NCBI RefSeq assembly: GCF_016428905.1
Contig: NZ_JAELTQ010000007.1
Span: forward strand, 1-64,000
Length of the DNA: 64,000 nucleotides
Reading direction: 5' to 3'
From: Dyella sp. ASV24
GTDB taxonomy: Bacteria > Pseudomonadota > Gammaproteobacteria > Xanthomonadales > Rhodanobacteraceae
Positions 34,939 through 46,511 of the stretch are shown here, piece after piece. Both the position numbers and the translations under genes were made by a program. The notes beneath the pieces were generated by a model. The model did no database searches and had not been told where the DNA came from. It worked only from the letters and a program-made list of their open reading frames with translations. Each line of letters starts with the position of its first letter. Position 1 is the first letter of the stretch.

Positions 34939-34978
34939 GGCGTCTTCAGGGAACAGGCATGAACAGGGGCAGGTGCAG

Positions 34979-36526
34979 ATGAATCGTCGGATGGCAGCAC
35001 TCCGCAGCGTGGCGCTGGTGTCAGCGTCCACGTATGTGGAGTACGCGCTGGGTTTGTTCATCAGCGTGTGGATTGCCCGTGCGCTGGGGCCGGCGGATTT
35101 CGGCCGCTACGCCTTTACCGTGTGGCTATGCGGCTGGCTGATGACCTTCAGTAATCACGCACTGACTACCTCGTCCACCAAGTTCATTGCCGAAGCGTAC
35201 GGCGCGGACATCCCTGATATCGCCTCGCATATTTCCTACCGACTGGCTCGCAATCAGGCGTGGAGCTGTGCCGCGGTGATCGGCCTGTTCTTTGTAGGCG
35301 TGGCGATCATTCGTCCGAAAGAGTGGGCGGGCTTTATCCTGCCCATCACCGCGCTGGTGGCCATCGGTGTCGTGGCCAAGGCCAATTACAGCCTGTGGGT
35401 GGCCATTTCGAAAGGGCAGGAGCGCTTCGAGCCGGTGTCGATCGCCACGGTGATATCCGGCGTGATCATGCTGACGCTCGTCGTACTGGCCACGGTCTTC
35501 CATGCAGGCTTATTGGCTTTCGTGGGCATATTTACGATCTCGTGCCTCACGTTGAATCTGATCAATCGCATCGCCTATCGGCGGTATTGCTTGCCATTTG
35601 GTCCGGGCGATGTACCTGCGGATCTGTCGAAACGGCTGACCCGGCACTTACGGCTTACTGCAGTGCTGATCCTGTTACTCGCACTCAAGAGCAATACGGT
35701 CGAAGTATTCCTGCTCACCACCTACGCCAATTCCACGGCTGTGGGCTTCTTCGCCATTGCCGGCACGTTGACCCGCGGCGCGGTGGAGTTGTTCTCCGTG
35801 GGCCTGACAACGACCTTGCTGCCGTATATGGCGCGTGCGTTCGGCCAGAACGGTCAAGGCCAGGCGACGCGTGTGCTGGCCGAGGCGACACGATTTTACT
35901 GGGCTACCGGTTTGATGATCGCAGGGCTCGGCTTTGTGACCACGCCGGGGCTGGTGACGCTGATGTACGGCAACAAATACGTGGACGCCATTCCTGCCAT
36001 CGAAGTGACCCTGGTGCTTGCCGGCCTGCTGCTGATCACCAACAGCATCGCTGCGTTCCAGGTGGTGACGGATCGTCAATGGGATCGCCTGCGCATCTCG
36101 GGTTCCGCGTTGGTCATCAACGTAGTGCTTGGCTTCAGCCTGATTCCGCATTTTGGCCTGCTTGGCGCAGTGCTTTGCTACGCAGGCACGCGGCTGGCGG
36201 AACTGGTGATCTGCACGTTCTACATCCGTCGCGTGGCTAGTGCAGGTTTGCCGGTGGCGGTGATGGCTAGGTTGTTTGCGGTGGGGTTGCTGGCCACTGG
36301 TGGGGGGTGGCTGGTGGCGAATGTCACGCCGGGACATTTTGCGTTTCTGGCGGGGGCGATGGTGTTTTCGGCGGTGTTTTTGCCGGCCAGTTTTGTGGTG
36401 CGGTATTGGAGTGATGCGGATTATCGGTTGATGGGGATGATTACGGATAAGTTGGGGCCGGTGGGTAGGGTGGCGAAGCGGGTGATTGGGGTGTTGCAGG
36501 GGCCGGTGGAGAGGGTGGCGCCTTAG
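34979..36526 (+). CDS. Polysaccharide flippase (Wzx/MOP superfamily)
   Basis: A 515-residue inner-membrane protein with about 12-14 hydrophobic segments. It opens with the flippase signature VALVSASTYVEYALGLFISVWIARALG split across residues 12-38, and has GPADFGRYAFTVWLCGWL and GLLGAVLCYAGTRLAELV. It moves lipid-linked repeat units across the inner membrane. ATG at 34979 is preferred over a GTG six bases earlier. From about 36245 to the stop the coding strand turns strongly G/T-rich and C-poor, unlike the rest of the gene. It is the last gene of the operon; a T-run lies at 36544-36549. Confidence 0.88.
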   Translation: MNRRMAALRSVALVSASTYVEYALGLFISVWIARALGPADFGRYAFTVWLCGWLMTFSNHALTTSSTKFIAEAYGADIPDIASHISYRLARNQAWSCAAVIGLFFVGVAIIRPKEWAGFILPITALVAIGVVAKANYSLWVAISKGQERFEPVSIATVISGVIMLTLVVLATVFHAGLLAFVGIFTISCLTLNLINRIAYRRYCLPFGPGDVPADLSKRLTRHLRLTAVLILLLALKSNTVEVFLLTTYANSTAVGFFAIAGTLTRGAVELFSVGLTTTLLPYMARAFGQNGQGQATRVLAEATRFYWATGLMIAGLGFVTTPGLVTLMYGNKYVDAIPAIEVTLVLAGLLLITNSIAAFQVVTDRQWDRLRISGSALVINVVLGFSLIPHFGLLGAVLCYAGTRLAELVICTFYIRRVASAGLPVAVMARLFAVGLLATGGGWLVANVTPGHFAFLAGAMVFSAVFLPASFVVRYWSDADYRLMGMITDKLGPVGRVAKRVIGVLQGPVERVAP

Positions 36527-36550
36527 GCGCGGCGTGGGGGCGCTTTTTTG
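36527..36550 (+). terminator. Possible terminator at the end of the EPS operon
   Basis: A short GC-rich segment follows the flippase stop, then a run of six T residues (36544-36549). The stem is weak, so this is only a possible intrinsic terminator. Confidence 0.3.
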
Positions 36551-37650
36551 CTCCCTCTCCCTTTTGGGGAGAGGGTTGGGGTGAGGGGTGGGTGCTCGCC
36601 CCGTGGTTTCATCTTTAGCCGTCACCCCGGTGCACCCCGCAAAAGGGGGCAAGGGCCGGGGTCCAGTAGCGGTATCGCTTGATTGTCGCGTGGCGGCGAT
36701 CGGGCCGCCTACGCGGCGGGCGTTTCGCCCTTCTGCCGAAGGCCGAGTCACTTTTCTTTGCTTGCCCAAAGAAAAGTAACCCAAAGAAAGGGCCCCCCGG
36801 AATCGGCGCCTTCCGGGCTACGCCCTCCAGGTGCGCGGTCGGGTTCCGGGCTTTTCGACGGGGCTCCTGCCCCGACGAAAAGTGGCTGGCATCCCTGCCA
36901 GCCACCCCTGCGGGGCCTTATCTCCACCCGCCCGCCGCCTCATACGGGGCCCGGAAGATCAAAAGCACAGAGCTGACGGCTCGTGCAGCTTTGCTGCACA
37001 TCGCACCGCGGCGGGTCGCGATGGTTCTGCTCCAGGCGCACAAAGCCAAGACAGAAGGAAAGGCGATGCCGTTCGTTGGCGAGTTCTTCCCACCGGTCGG
37101 GAAGCGTAGCGTCTTCTTTGCCTTGCCCCAGTGGTGGGAAAGCGTAGCGCTCCCTTTACGTCGCCTCGGCGGTAGGAAAGCGTAGCGTCCTCTCTCCCTA
37201 GCCCCAGCGATCGGGAAGCGTAGCGAAGCCTGCTTTAAGTCCTCTCCGCACCGGCGCGTTGCGAAGCGTTCCGGCGTACCCGCTGTGTAGAGGCGAAGGT
37301 GGCCAAGTCACACGATTCCTCAGCCGTTCGGGATTATCCCAAGGTAATGCTGCGGGCGTTGGCCTTACGGCCATTTTCTTTGGGTTACTTTTCTTTTGGG
37401 CCAGCAAAAGAAAAGTGACTCGCGCGTCGGCAGACGATCGAAACGCTCGCTGCGTAAGCGGCCTGATCGCGGTAACGCACGAAGCGACAGCCAATCACTG
37501 GCGAAACCAGATGACCAGCCATTCGGCTGTTGAGAAGCGCCTCCGGCCCTTGTCCCCTTTTGCGGGGTGCGCCGGGATGACGGCCAAAAATGAAACGATA
37601 AGGCGAGCACCCACCCCTCACCCCAACCATCCCCCCGAAGGGGAGAGGGA
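36551..37650. repeat. Palindromic hairpin-rich repeat element, copy 1
   Basis: A non-coding element between the convergent flippase and mfd genes. A core of 775 bp (36696-37470) has inverted ends about 95 bp long: each carries a GCGATC..GGCCG start, a GC hairpin, and a hairpin of the ACTTTTCTTTG..CAAAGAAAAGT kind. Outside, an imperfect inverted repeat reaches CCTCTCCC..GGGGAGAGG at both outer ends. Inside are hairpins at 36851-36882 and 36882-36905, a GTGCAGC/GCTGCAC hairpin, and four copies of GGGAAGCGTAGCG (37099, 37136, 37175, 37213). Short frames in it have no family signature. Copy 2 is at 45586-46511 in the same orientation. Confidence 0.85.
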
Positions 37651-37798
37651 ATAGAACGCGTCGCACGCTTGCGGCCCTTCGCATCCTATGAACGAGCACC
37701 AAAATGCAAGCTTCGGTGAAGCGGCAAAATGTGTACCCGAGCCGCAAGTCCGTCAACGCCAAAAAGTTACGTAGCCGCGCCCCAGCGAAGAGCAGCCA

Positions 37799-40700
37799 TC
37801 ACCCCGGACGCCGTGCTCCCAATTGCACCAACACTTCCTGCGCCGCGCGAATACGCTCAGTCGCACCCGGCAACTCCAGATTCACCTTGAGCTTGTCCTG
37901 CCCATCCAGCTTGTAAACGCGCGGCTGACTCTGGATCAGGCGAATGATCGCCATCGGATCCACCTCCGGCTTGTCGCGGAAGGTGATGCGTCCTCCATTG
38001 GCGCCGAAGTCCAGCTTACGAATGCCTAGCGGCGTTGCCATCAGCTTGAGCTGGGCGACGGCGAACAACTGCTTCGCCGCGTCAGGCAGCAAGCCGAAGC
38101 GGTCGATCATCTCCACCTGAAGATCGCGCAGGTGATCCTCGTTGCGTGCACTGGCGATGCGCTTGTACAGCGTCAGGCGCGTGTGGACGTCCGGCAGGTA
38201 GTCGTCGGGAATCAGAGCTGGCAAGTGCAGTTCGACTTCTGTTTCGTGCTCGCTGCTGAGGTCGAAGTCGGGCACCTTGCCGGACTTGAGTGCGCGCACG
38301 GCGCGCTCCAGTAGCTCGGTGTAGAGACCGAAGCCGATCTCCTGGATCTGGCCAGACTGTTCATCACCCAGCAGTTCGCCCGCGCCGCGGATTTCCAGGT
38401 CGTGCGTGGCCAGGGTGAAGCCGGCGCCCAGTTCTTCCAGCGAGGCGATCGCTTCCAGTCGCTTTTCCGCATCAGCCGTCATGGCCTTGCGATCAGGTAC
38501 CACAAGATAGGCGTAGGCACGGTGGTGCGAACGGCCCACACGGCCACGCAACTGGTGCAACTGCGCGAGGCCGAAGCGGTCTGCTCGGTTGATGATGATG
38601 GTGTTGGCCGTGGGGATGTCGATGCCGGTTTCGATAATGGTGGTGCATACCAGCACGTTGAAACGCTGGCGGTGGAAATCCGCCATCACGCGTTCCAGGT
38701 CGCGTTCGGCCATCTGGCCATGGGCGATGCCAATGCGCGCTTCCGGAATCAATTCCTCCAGTTCGCGTGCCGTGCGTTCGATGGTGTCCACTTCGTTATG
38801 CAGGAAGTACACCTGACCACCGCGTTGAAGCTCACGCTGGAATGCCTCGCGGACCAGCGCAGGCTCCCATTGCGCGATGAACGTGCGTACCGCCATGCGA
38901 TGCGCGGGTGGCGTGGCGATCAGTGAGAGATCGCGCAGGCCGCTCATGGCCATATTGAGCGTGCGCGGGATCGGCGTGGCCGTCATGGTGAGCAGGTCCA
39001 CTTCGGCGCGCAGCTTCTTCAGCTGTTCTTTCTGGCGCACGCCAAAGCGCTGCTCTTCGTCGACGATGACCAGGCCAAGGTTCTTGAACTTGATCTCCGG
39101 TGCAAGCAGCTTGTGCGTGCCGACGATCACGTCGATCTGTCCATCGGTAAGACGCTTGAGCGCTTCGTTCACTTCCTTGGTCGATTTGAAGCGCGAGAGC
39201 ACGTCCACGCGTACCGGCCAGTCGGCAAAGCGGTCAGCGAAATTGCGATAGTGCTGCTGGGCGAGCAGGGTAGTGGGCACGAGCACAGCGACCTGCCGGC
39301 CGGCTGTTGCCGCAGCGAAAGCGGCGCGCAGCGCCACTTCGGTCTTGCCGAAGCCCACATCGCCGCAGATCACGCGATCCATGGCGCGCGGTGCGGCGAG
39401 GTCCTTCAGCACGGAATCGATGGCCTGTTCCTGGTCCGGCGTTTCCTCGAACGGGAAGGTGGCTCCAAATTCCTCGACCATCTGGCGGTCGATCGGCATC
39501 GACTCGCCGCCGCGCGCTTCGCGCTGTGCGTAGATGGCGAGCAATTCGGCGGCCACGTCGCGTACTTTCTCGGCGGCCTTGCGGCGCGCGCGTTCCCAGG
39601 CGTCGCCACCGAGCGAATGCAGCGGTGCGAGTTCAGGGGCCGTGCCGGTATAGCGACTGACCAGACCGAGTTGCGCCACGGGCACGTAGAGCTTGTCGCC
39701 CTTGGCGTACTCGATGGTGAGGAACTCGCCTTCCATGCCGCCCAGTTCCATCGATACCAGGCCCTGGTATCGGCCGACGCCGTGGTCGACATGGACGATG
39801 GGCGCACCGATGGTCAGCTCGGTGAGATCGCGGATGATGCTTTCCGGATCGCGCGCTGCGCCGCGGCGGCGCTTGCGATCCGTGCGTACGCGTTCGCCAA
39901 ATAGCTCGCGCTCGGTGAGCACAGTGAAGGCGGGCTGGGTGAGGGCAAAGCCCTGTTCCAGTCCTGCGATGGTGATGGCAAGCCGTAGTTTGTCGCTGCC
40001 GGCAAGAAACGCTTGCCAGCCGTCGATGGTGTCTGGTTTCAGGCCGGCGCTGGCGAGCTGTTCGATCAGGGCTTCGCGGCGACCTGCCGAGTCGGCGGTG
40101 ATCAGCACGCGCCCCGGGTAGCTCGACAGGAAATGGCGCAGCGATGTGCCGGGCTCTTCGCCCTTGCGGTTGAGCGGGAGTTCCGGTGCGGGTTGCGTGC
40201 CACTAGGTAGGGCATGTTCGTGGCCGCTTTCCACTAGTTCCACGCGCAGGCGCTTGTTGAGCTGTTCGCGCAGCAGTTCCGGCGGAAGGTACAGCTCGGC
40301 CGGCGGCAGCACGGGGCGTTCGATATCGTGCGCGCGCTGGTCGTAGCGTTCGCCGGTCTGCGTCCAGAACTGGTCGGCCGACTCCAGTGCACCTTCGCCC
40401 AGGAGGAATACGGCGCTGTCGGCGAGATAGTCGAACAGCGTGGCAGTCTGTTCAAAGAACATCGGCAGGTAGTACTCAATGCCGCCCGGCGTCACGCCTT
40501 CTTTCATGTCCTGGTAGAGCGGGCAGCGACGCACGTCGATGGGGAAGCGCTCGCGCAGGCGCGTGCGGAAATCTTTGGCAGCGTTCTCCGTAAGCGGAAA
40601 TTCCCGCGCGGGCAGCAACTCGATGTAGTCCACCTGCTGCTGCGAGCGTTGGGTTTCCGGATCGAAGCTACGGATGGATTCCACTTCGTCGTCGAACAGC

Positions 40701-41254
40701 TCGATGCGATACGGTTCGGCGGCACCCATCGGAAAGATGTCGATCAGCGCGCCGCGCACGGCGAAGTCTCCAGGCTCACCCACCTGCGGCACGTTGCGAT
40801 AGCCGGCAGCCTCCAGCCTGCGCTGCTCCGCAGCGAGGTCGAGCTTCTGTTTCTTCCGCACCACCAAACCCGCGCCCGTGATGTGGCTGCGCGGGGCAAT
40901 GCGCTGCATCAGCGTGGCAATGGGCACCACTAGTACGCCGCGTTGCACATTCGGCAACTCGTACAGAGTGGCGATGCGCTGCGAGACGATGTCCGGGTGC
41001 GGACTGAACACGTCGTAGGGCAACGTTTCCCAGTCGGGGAAGTGCAGCACGGGCAGGTTGCCCGCGAACACGCGCAGCTCATCTTCCAGCGCGCTCGCCC
41101 GCTGCGTGTCGCGCGTCACGGCAACCAGCAGCCCCTGGTGCGTGCGCGCGGCTTCGGCGACCAGCAAGGCGCGCGAGGAACCGTGTGGCGACGTCCAGAA
41201 GCGACGCTGCTTGGGGGTGGTGGGCAGGGACGGGTGGGGAATCGTATTGGCCAT
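37799..41254 (-). CDS. mfd: Transcription-repair coupling factor
   Basis: A 1151-residue DNA translocase that removes RNA polymerase stalled at lesions and recruits UvrA. In order: UvrB-like N-terminal domains (residues 20-350, with FPDWETLPYDVFSPHPDIVS), the RNA polymerase-interacting CarD-like domain (about residues 475-560, VHVDHGVGRYQGL), a helicase core with Walker A GDVGFGKTEVA near residue 630 and DEEQRFG near 731, motif VI (QLRGRVGRSHHRAYAYL), and a C-terminal TRCF domain with LPALIPDDYLPDVHTRLTLY. Length is normal for the family. It is a housekeeping gene, converging with the EPS operon across a repeat element. Confidence 0.97.
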   Translation of the reverse strand: MANTIPHPSLPTTPKQRRFWTSPHGSSRALLVAEAARTHQGLLVAVTRDTQRASALEDELRVFAGNLPVLHFPDWETLPYDVFSPHPDIVSQRIATLYELPNVQRGVLVVPIATLMQRIAPRSHITGAGLVVRKKQKLDLAAEQRRLEAAGYRNVPQVGEPGDFAVRGALIDIFPMGAAEPYRIELFDDEVESIRSFDPETQRSQQQVDYIELLPAREFPLTENAAKDFRTRLRERFPIDVRRCPLYQDMKEGVTPGGIEYYLPMFFEQTATLFDYLADSAVFLLGEGALESADQFWTQTGERYDQRAHDIERPVLPPAELYLPPELLREQLNKRLRVELVESGHEHALPSGTQPAPELPLNRKGEEPGTSLRHFLSSYPGRVLITADSAGRREALIEQLASAGLKPDTIDGWQAFLAGSDKLRLAITIAGLEQGFALTQPAFTVLTERELFGERVRTDRKRRRGAARDPESIIRDLTELTIGAPIVHVDHGVGRYQGLVSMELGGMEGEFLTIEYAKGDKLYVPVAQLGLVSRYTGTAPELAPLHSLGGDAWERARRKAAEKVRDVAAELLAIYAQREARGGESMPIDRQMVEEFGATFPFEETPDQEQAIDSVLKDLAAPRAMDRVICGDVGFGKTEVALRAAFAAATAGRQVAVLVPTTLLAQQHYRNFADRFADWPVRVDVLSRFKSTKEVNEALKRLTDGQIDVIVGTHKLLAPEIKFKNLGLVIVDEEQRFGVRQKEQLKKLRAEVDLLTMTATPIPRTLNMAMSGLRDLSLIATPPAHRMAVRTFIAQWEPALVREAFQRELQRGGQVYFLHNEVDTIERTARELEELIPEARIGIAHGQMAERDLERVMADFHRQRFNVLVCTTIIETGIDIPTANTIIINRADRFGLAQLHQLRGRVGRSHHRAYAYLVVPDRKAMTADAEKRLEAIASLEELGAGFTLATHDLEIRGAGELLGDEQSGQIQEIGFGLYTELLERAVRALKSGKVPDFDLSSEHETEVELHLPALIPDDYLPDVHTRLTLYKRIASARNEDHLRDLQVEMIDRFGLLPDAAKQLFAVAQLKLMATPLGIRKLDFGANGGRITFRDKPEVDPMAIIRLIQSQPRVYKLDGQDKLKVNLELPGATERIRAAQEVLVQLGARRPG

Positions 41255-45585: not shown

Positions 45586-46511
45586 TCCTCTCCCCTATGG
45601 GGAGAGGGTTGGGGTGAGGGGCGGGTGCTCGCCTTGTGGTTTCGATGAAACCGTCCCCACGGCGCAGGCCGGAGGCGCTTCTCAGCAGCCGAATGGCTGG
45701 TCATCCAGTAGCGATATCGCTTGGTTCTCGCGTTGCGGCGATCTGGCCGCTTACGCAGCGGGCGTTTCGGCCTCCTGCCGGAGGCCGAGTCACTTTTCTT
45801 TGCTTGCCCAAAGAAAAGTAACCCAAAGAAAGGGCACCCCCGTCGCGTCGCCGGCCGATAAAGCCGGCCGGTCCGTGAGGGTCGGCCGGGCTTTTCGACA
45901 GGGCATCCTGCCCTGACGAAAAGTGCCGGGCATCGTGCCCGGCACCCCTTCGGGGCCTGATCGTCCACCCCTCACCGCCGCTCTAGGGGGCCCGGAAGAT
46001 CAAAAGCGAAAGCTGACGGCTCGTGCAGCTGTGCTGCACATCGCATCGCGGCAGGTCGCGTTGCTGCTGCTCTAAGTGCACAAAACCAAGGCGGAAGACA
46101 AAGACGATGCTGTTCGGTGGCGAGTTCTCCCCACCGGTCGGGAAGCGTAGCGTTTGCTTTCCCTTGCCCCAGTGGTGGGAAAGCGTAGCGCTCCCTTTAT
46201 CTTGCCTTGGCGGTAGGAAAGCGTAGCGTCCTCTCTCCCTAGCCCCAGGGGTAGGGAAGCGTAGCGCGGCCTGCTTTAAGTCCTCTTGGCCATGGCGCGT
46301 TGCGAAGCGCTTCGGCGTACCCGCTGTGTAGAGGTGGAGGTGACCAAGCAGCACGATTCCTCACCCGTTCGGGCTTATCCCAAGGTCATGCTGCGGGCGT
46401 TGGCTTTACGGCCATTTTCTTTGGGTTACTTTTCTTTTGGGCCAGCAAAAGAAAAGTGACTCGGCCTCCGGCAGGAGGTCGAAACGCCCGCTGCGTAAGC
46501 GGCCAGATCGC
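45586..46511. repeat. Palindromic hairpin-rich repeat element, copy 2
   Basis: Second copy, between the divergent rlmJ and copL-like genes, in the same orientation as copy 1. The core is 774 bp (45738-46511) with 95-bp inverted ends of high identity; the left outer segment with CCTCTCCCC..GGGGAGAGG is present, while the right outer segment is missing. Hairpins at 45891-45923 and 45923-45945 match those of copy 1 with paired substitutions. Four GGGAAGCGTAGCG-type motifs lie at 46140, 46177, 46216 and 46254. Confidence 0.85.

Follow-up and report, generated by a model that had tools for sequence, protein, structure and literature searches.

The window analysed here, a 64,000-nucleotide stretch from Dyella sp. 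ASV24, contains two copies of a palindromic intergenic element, the first lying between convergent open reading frames and the second between divergent genes (Table 1). The inverted arms of copy 1 (36552–36659 and 37543–37650) span 108 nt and are 88% complementary, while those of copy 2 span 80 nt and are 90% complementary; the layout of copy 2 is that of copy 1 without the outermost right arm. The original prediction described two related copies whose stems differ in sequence but stay paired, and both copies and the quoted stem pairs were found in the sequence at their positions. Its statement that the element contains no gene also held, as the six translated frames across the element gave no Pfam match at E ≤ 0.01. 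We rejected a coding role on the same result and because codon-position GC indicated no gene-like open reading frame.

Table 1. Features of the two element copies and the open reading frames beside copy 1, in window coordinates
Feature	Position	Strand	Description
Open reading frame beside copy 1	34973..36526	+	convergent with the frame at 37799..41254
Whole element, copy 1	36551..37650		~1.1 kb, gene-free
Left outer end	36553..36588	+	Y-R-R' G/C-rich intrastrand triplex motif, fits TM_ECO (BoxC/PIT) consensus
Second arm hairpin	36619..36666	+	CCCCGG../..CCGGGG type
A-rich triplex/pseudoknot	36751..36793	+	predicted; Y arm CTTTTCTTT, R arm AAAGAAAAG, clamp GCCC/GGGC
Hairpin H6b	36809..36831	+	covarying; 3x3 internal mismatch TCC/TCC (GGA/GGA on minus strand)
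Hairpin H7	36851..36882	-	loop TCCT on plus, AGGA on minus strand; internal stem mismatch kept in most copies
Hairpin H8	36882..36905	-	loop ATCCCT on plus, AGGGAU (ANGGA) on minus strand; variable covarying stem
Short hairpin H8c	36905..36915	+	CCCC-TGC-GGGG
Central array	37104..37225	+	GCGTAGCG at 37104, 37142, 37180 and 37218; 38-nt spacing
Right-arm A-rich triplex/pseudoknot	37369..37415	+	predicted; inverted relative to the left one
Right outer end	37614..37650	-	degenerate inverted copy of TM_ECO-like motif
Open reading frame beside copy 1	37799..41254	-	convergent with the frame at 34973..36526
Element, copy 2	45586..46511		right outer end missing; flanked by divergent genes
Copy 2 A-rich triplex/pseudoknot	45793..45835	+	predicted
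Copy 2 hairpin H7	45891..45923	-	loop AGGAU on minus strand
Copy 2 hairpin H8	45923..45945	-	loop ATCG(T) on plus strand; no GGA on minus strand

A whole-genome search for copies had been proposed together with the original prediction. By searching this genome (5.63 Mb, 635 contigs) with a 25-nt arm core at up to three mismatches, we found 63 forward and 54 reverse matches, or 117 in total, compared to none for the reversed pattern in the same search. Because a complete element contributes two core matches, the genome holds about 55–60 elements, and 53 copies could be oriented and aligned. Contig ends of the draft assembly fall inside many copies (loci L060–L095), so both copy number and structure are under-counted. 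The element shares terminal inverted repeats and the lack of a gene with MITEs, and the listed flanks, compared by eye, revealed no constant target-site duplication. We infer that the element is probably mobile. We saw no indication that its copies are degraded parts of a known transposon, with transposases looked for only in the DUF559 unit described below. The number of central array units seems to vary between copies, with fewer in some. A mini-element of ~130 bp (L097 around 590–730, G000:C12:14090–14230) has the same two ends without the hairpin module of the left arm.

The stems of this module change in sequence while retaining their pairing. Between copies 1 and 2, the H7 stem reads CGGGGC/GCCCCG vs. 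CAGGGC/GCCCTG and the H8 stem GTGGCTGGC/GCCAGCCAC vs. GTGCCGGGC/GCCCGGCAC, while the arm hairpins carry CTTC/GAAG vs. CTCC/GGAG and CGTC/GACG vs. CTCC/GGAG. Across 18 diverse copies, 94.7% of cells were paired, and 69 cells carried two-sided changes, compared to 18.7 expected by shuffling and to a single one-sided change. Using a covariance model built on the left module, we gathered further copies from 65 chosen loci in this genome, its genus, and its order. The first 84 aligned matches yielded 77 distinct copies, in which 16 column pairs reached E < 0.05 against a tree-simulated null. All 16 were among the 43 helix pairs, in stems H6, H6b, H7, H8, and H8c, and no column pair outside the modelled stems was significant. 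The compensatory change that the original prediction had read from two copies extends to many. One of the 16 significant pairs, the outermost of H8c, covaries yet is unpaired in many copies.

Pairs and loops of H7 and H8 were counted in 81 distinct sequences, seven of them from this genome, obtained from the first 88 of 150 aligned matches. H7 contained 1013 Watson-Crick cells out of 1017 (no G-T, two A-C, and two other), and H8 contained 585 out of 593 (one G-T, six A-C, and one other), with up to four pair types at each stem position. Pair counts from another tool concurred, based on a second alignment that was fitted to the model and includes weak rows. Not every position was paired: H7 retained an internal mismatch (A.A in 42 and A.G in 27 of 81 copies), and the three middle positions of H6b were unpaired in 40, 29, and 35 of 79 copies, while H7 and H8 stayed paired. 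The TCC/TCC mismatch of H6b listed in Table 1 occurs in 19 of 81 copies and possibly forms sheared G-A pairs.

The original prediction also held that the element matches no nameable class, which fails for its ends. The left end fits the TM_ECO consensus CCCTCNCCC-N3-6-GGGNGAGGG-N3-GGGNGAGGG (PMC4666352), and the right end is degenerate. TM_ECO, formerly named BoxC or PIT, is a G/C-rich purine-type intrastrand triplex motif that formed a DNA triplex in vitro; according to the same source, RNA can form pyrimidine-type triplexes, which are driven by T-A-T triads, but not purine-type ones (PMC4666352). H6, the inner motif, likewise runs from a pyrimidine arm through a purine arm to a mirror purine strand, but it differs from the outer ends in being A-rich. 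Its mirror third strand in copy 1 is CAAAGAAA, with one mismatch. Across genera, the third strand mirrors the purine arm, with one position reading A-A in 56 copies, G-G in 14, and A-G in 3. The sequence beyond the third strand is complementary to the H6 hairpin loop, giving the clamp helix, in which one position reads C-G in 35 copies, G-C in 14, T-A in 14, and other combinations in 11.

We compared these relations in the 77 copies with a pair-specific tree null. For the five mirror pairs, G summed to 165, where the null never exceeded 73, and for the five clamp pairs it summed to 220 against a highest null value of 105; 0 of 400 simulations matched the observed sum in either case. Shifted and direct-repeat controls reached 47–54 and were exceeded by 7, 8, and 19 of 400 nulls; they lie above most of their own nulls, as would be expected where neighbouring columns have a common history. 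In an all-against-all test of the same copies, neither the mirror nor the clamp relation reached E < 0.05. Under the pair-specific null, then, two stems and a matching third strand covary, as is characteristic of an H-type triple-helix pseudoknot. On the complementary strand, the motif is a candidate for such a pseudoknot, with a pyrimidine loop that can form U.A-U and C.G-C triples, and at the left-arm motif of copy 1 it is the minus strand that would form the pyrimidine-type triplex. In three loci (L014, L036, and L098), the purine arm is interrupted by a ATCCCACGGGGACTAGCTTCGCGTCG-like stretch, apparently a nested insertion, and in two others (L021 and L055) the triplex hairpin arm is also altered.

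The loops of H7 and H8 are conserved on these variable stems. The regulator CsrA is a dimer that prefers hairpins exposing ANGGA, usually paired (PMC7366521, PMC4333381). In our alignment, the plus-strand loop was TCC(N)T, equal to A(N)GGA on the minus strand, in 74 of 81 copies for H7 and 75 of 81 for H8. The closing pair was C-G in 78 of 78 and 77 of 79 copies with letters, respectively. The module therefore holds at least two A(N)GGA hairpins, as do the CsrA/RsmA-binding RNAs of Rfam clan CL00106; window copy 1 has both H7 and H8, and window copy 2 has H7 only. The loops were also polarized. Hairpin loops lying up to ~215 nt downstream of a triplex, counted without stretches of <120 nt, repeats, and N, carried TCC, GGA, or neither in 77, 0, and 18 cases in this genome (89 triplexes), 141, 0, and 34 in the order (81 triplexes), and 30, 0, and 8 in the class (22 triplexes). 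Control hairpins at the same loci gave 15, 11, and 210; 10, 12, and 252; and 6, 9, and 56, respectively. Downstream TCC-loop hairpins were missing for 47 of 89, 13 of 81, and 3 of 22 triplexes. With wider scoring, GGA appeared in four plus-strand loops. All four came from G259, and inspection by eye placed them in the triplex hairpin of that genome.

A relaxed Rfam search of 52 loci (167 kb), two of which (L049 and L109) cover one place, returned nine sub-threshold CL00106 matches, all over modules and all on the minus, GGA-bearing strand; two of the nine came from one tandem array. The best was TwoAYGGAY at 42.3 bits (gathering score 43, E = 0.0012), and no family reached its gathering score in the window or the 52 loci. 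Some smaller E-values at these loci belonged to unrelated families (MIR8670, 2.3e-8; isrG, 4.5e-5; MIR1432, 5.9e-4), so only the strand and overlap of the CL00106 matches count. Three further sub-threshold matches were to Bacillaceae-1, and their strand agrees because that family has the CsrA motif on its reverse complement (PMC4333381).

In covariance model searches, 76 of the 200 genomes from the order gave a module match, and the class gave matches in 85 of 369 genomes and 72 of 272 genera; class-level loci are best-scoring matches, with weak modules under-sampled. Outside the order, we read modules by eye on a replicon of Aeromonas caviae and a replicon of Pseudoalteromonas sp. NC201. The A-rich triplex is also present on an Ilyobacter polytropus plasmid (Fusobacteriota; L131 1501–1565), where no TCC-loop hairpin was seen by eye.

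As in hosts of CL00106 RNAs, CsrA is encoded in the Dyella genome (PF02599, 91.9 bits). Genomes with and without the module could not be told apart by the presence of CsrA (51 of the 58 searched, out of 85 positives, vs. 13 of 15); it was the state of the loops that separated genomes. Two genomes that are 99–100% complete and without CsrA (G328 and G498) have the triplex and lack GGA hairpins in the copies looked at, and searches of their orders found modules in 49 of 61 and 20 of 60 genomes. We fixed a loop-based prediction before searching for CsrA in two follow-up orders and one genus, picked because a member had neither CsrA nor loops; the prediction was blind only for genomes without an earlier CsrA search. 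CsrA was found in 16 of 17 loop-positive genomes, with the exception (G644) being 91% complete, and no CsrA was found in 17 of 18 loop-negative genomes, with the eighteenth (G598) containing a partial hit of 51.9 bits, above the Pfam cut-off.

Among all scored genomes, 36 loop-positive ones had strong CsrA and seven had none, while 1 loop-negative genome had strong CsrA, 2 had weak CsrA, and 22 had none. At ≥95% completeness, strong CsrA vs. the rest stood at 30 to 2 in loop-positive and 1 to 23 in loop-negative genomes (Fisher p = 2e-12, phylogeny ignored). Stricter pattern-based scoring, restricted to loci with a recognised triplex pattern (56 genomes), gave 23 with and 0 without CsrA vs. 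0 with and 21 without. The wider scoring accepted a model match (69 genomes) and included G600, which lay outside the CsrA search; loci L203 and L207 and the modules of G604 (strong CsrA, in a loop-negative family), G594, G602, and G612 were unscored. The exceptions were G344 and G511, which have loops but gave no CsrA hit and whose assemblies comprise 470 and 590 contigs at contamination values of 5 and 7; G589, with CsrA and no TCC loop; and five more loop-positive genomes, 73–91% complete, with no CsrA hit. Most of the loop-negative group comes from a single order and a single genus, so these counts represent few independent contrasts. Still, the covariation, the conserved loops on variable stems, and the co-occurrence of loops with CsrA support the originally predicted selection on the folded form, and we consider it highly probable that selection acts on the fold.

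These results are most economically explained by an old, dispersed repeat whose ends are DNA-type triplexes and which carries an RNA module, with paired CsrA sites adjoining a triplex pseudoknot. We lean toward describing the element as a dispersed non-coding repeat that, once transcribed, would present paired CsrA-binding hairpins beside a triplex pseudoknot, and our confidence in a CsrA-type RNA reading of the module is likewise modest, a little above even. Under this reading, the element would have two nested triplex-forming arm pairs, an outer BoxC/PIT/TM_ECO-like pair acting at the DNA level and an inner A-rich pair closed by the clamp helix. The left-arm module would be read as RNA on the minus strand of the window, in the order of two adjacent A(N)GGA-loop hairpins, a third variable hairpin, and the pseudoknot, whose U/C-rich loop could make a U.A-U/C.G-C triple helix. 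The paired GGA hairpins would bind a CsrA/RsmA dimer, and the pseudoknot would stabilise or end the transcript. Where two modules form an inverted pair, a transcript crossing it from either side would include one sense module. The effect could be titration of CsrA, protection or marking of neighbouring mRNAs, or a service to the element itself. It is a more tentative idea, and one that may well fail, that class-wide mobile repeats scatter dozens of CsrA-binding modules, each next to a triple-helix pseudoknot, across gammaproteobacterial genomes as a distributed sponge or plug neighbouring transcripts into Csr/Rsm, with hairpins gained and lost along with CsrA.

The gene context could fit a different role. 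Among 30 copies in this genome with both neighbours called, by a simple codon-composition script, 14 lay between convergent genes, 15 between co-directional genes, and 1 (window copy 2) between divergent genes; 85 settings in other genomes divided into 31, 45, and 9, based on simple gene calls that are unreliable at low G+C. Positions 36400–37800 contain seven terminator-like sites, compared to 1.9 expected, and no sigma-70-like promoter site was found there. Both the context and the terminator-like sites would be expected of a bidirectional 3'-end element, that is, a terminator or REP-like RNA-stability hairpins with incidental GGA loops. However, this explanation accounts for neither the identity of the loops, nor their one-strand polarity, nor their co-occurrence with CsrA, and we consider it rather unlikely. 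Sense read-through from neighbouring genes was unsupported as a source of the RNA, since modules beside co-directional neighbours were more often antisense than sense, both in this genome (12 vs. 3) and, for single modules, in other genomes (18 vs. 11). Of the triplex clusters at loci of other genomes, 83 consisted of a lone triplex, 26 of a plus-minus pair, and 7 of a minus-plus pair, with other arrangements among the rest listed. Folding energy does not pick a strand, as both strands folded better than shuffles (z = -4.6 for minus and -5.7 for plus). We also dropped a strand call from wobble pairs (eight A-C vs. one G-U in H7 and H8 of the order set), because the bias was not upheld in 194 hairpins (16 A-C vs. 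10 G-U, p = 0.33), where 101 of 1552 pairs were other mismatches. Between RNA and single-stranded DNA, both of which the original prediction had allowed, the evidence leans toward RNA of the complementary strand and does not settle the choice.

Folding as DNA stays a rival, given the near-absence of G-U pairs, a gene context that does not favour sense read-through, and a loss of CsrA that is represented by few clades. G-U pairs were almost absent from H7 (0 of 1017) and H8 (1 of 593), which is unusual for RNA and counts against the RNA reading. If the fold mattered as DNA, with hairpins and triplexes arising on single-stranded or supercoiled DNA and recognised by the apparatus for copying or moving the element, and the resemblance to CsrA sites were coincidental, such nearly pure Watson-Crick pairing would be expected, as would interspersed copies whose ends are shared with shorter units. 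The left end fits a motif that forms a DNA triplex in vitro (PMC4666352), and the A-rich triplex inside shares its Y-R-R' polarity. Yet the DNA explanation predicts neither GGA loops on one strand only nor their absence in clades without CsrA, and since T-A-T triads drive pyrimidine-type triplexes (PMC4666352), an A-rich motif would be expected to use the complementary strand, whether as DNA or RNA. On balance, we find it unlikely. Less likely again is that mutation alone maintains the pairing, through template switching between palindrome arms that copies changes across. This could generate the predominance of two-sided changes (69 vs. 1 one-sided) and the multi-base stem alleles seen inside one genome. 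However, template switching alone is weakened by the mismatches retained in H7 and in the middle of H6b while H7 and H8 remain paired; moreover, the loops are conserved although unpaired, and mirror covariation of a third strand is not an obvious outcome of such switching.

Returning to a repeat with an RNA module, several known systems offer comparisons. REP/BIME and MITE repeats are palindromic and intergenic, with inverted ends and a bias to gene 3' ends. The element shares these features, including the 3'-end preference, but is longer, with two-triplex arms, a module conserved across a class, and no identified transposase. In telomerase-type pseudoknots, a pyrimidine loop joins the stem's purine strand in U.A-U and C.G-C triples. 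The pyrimidine loop of our element is predicted to form the same triples, though this candidate is bacterial and lies inside a repeat. BoxC/PIT/TM_ECO repeats are likewise intergenic and present in many copies, and inverted pairs of them are also known in E. coli (PMC4666352). Here, by contrast, they form the ends of a ~1-kb element enclosing GGA-loop hairpins together with a second, A-rich triplex and its clamp helix; for the E. coli repeats, no link to mobile elements was reported (PMC4666352). CL00106 RNAs (TwoAYGGAY, RsmW, and relatives) share the adjacent A(N)GGA hairpins, and the TwoAYGGAY match falls on the predicted strand. Unlike them, our module belongs to a repeat in dozens of dispersed copies, is joined to a triplex pseudoknot, scores below gathering, and is only predicted to bind CsrA. 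A functional precedent, likened by description rather than sequence and probably from the same order as the window, is RsmU of Xanthomonas campestris, an RsmA-binding RNA with GGA motifs that is processed from a 3'UTR (PMC7694677). RsmU is described as a single locus downstream of comEA for which BLAST gave no relatives beyond Xanthomonas (PMC7694677). The matches listed by full-text literature searches included no report of a repeat carrying CsrA sites.

If the CsrA reading is true, an interspersed repeat may titrate or re-wire a global RNA regulator, which would connect selfish DNA with post-transcriptional regulation throughout a large class of bacteria. The repeat could supply CsrA-binding RNA where BLAST found no CsrB-type RNAs, as is reported for Xanthomonas (PMC7694677). 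In addition, it offers for study a natural candidate for a bacterial triple-helix pseudoknot with three covarying strands.

A separate unit with the same TM_ECO-like ends (L096 3369–3800, G000:C240:25869–26291) carries a DUF559 gene. We kept DUF559 as a mobiliser only as a lead, since the patterns used in the DUF559 search themselves partly selected for the end motif: they included translated end sequence, and three loci matched the protein tail only. With that selection, the end motif lay upstream in 15 of the 25 DUF559 loci, which include loci from distant phyla, compared to 3 of 136 background windows. The DUF559 gene (135.7 bits) is the sole match in this genome, and the best relatives of its protein are in Dyella.
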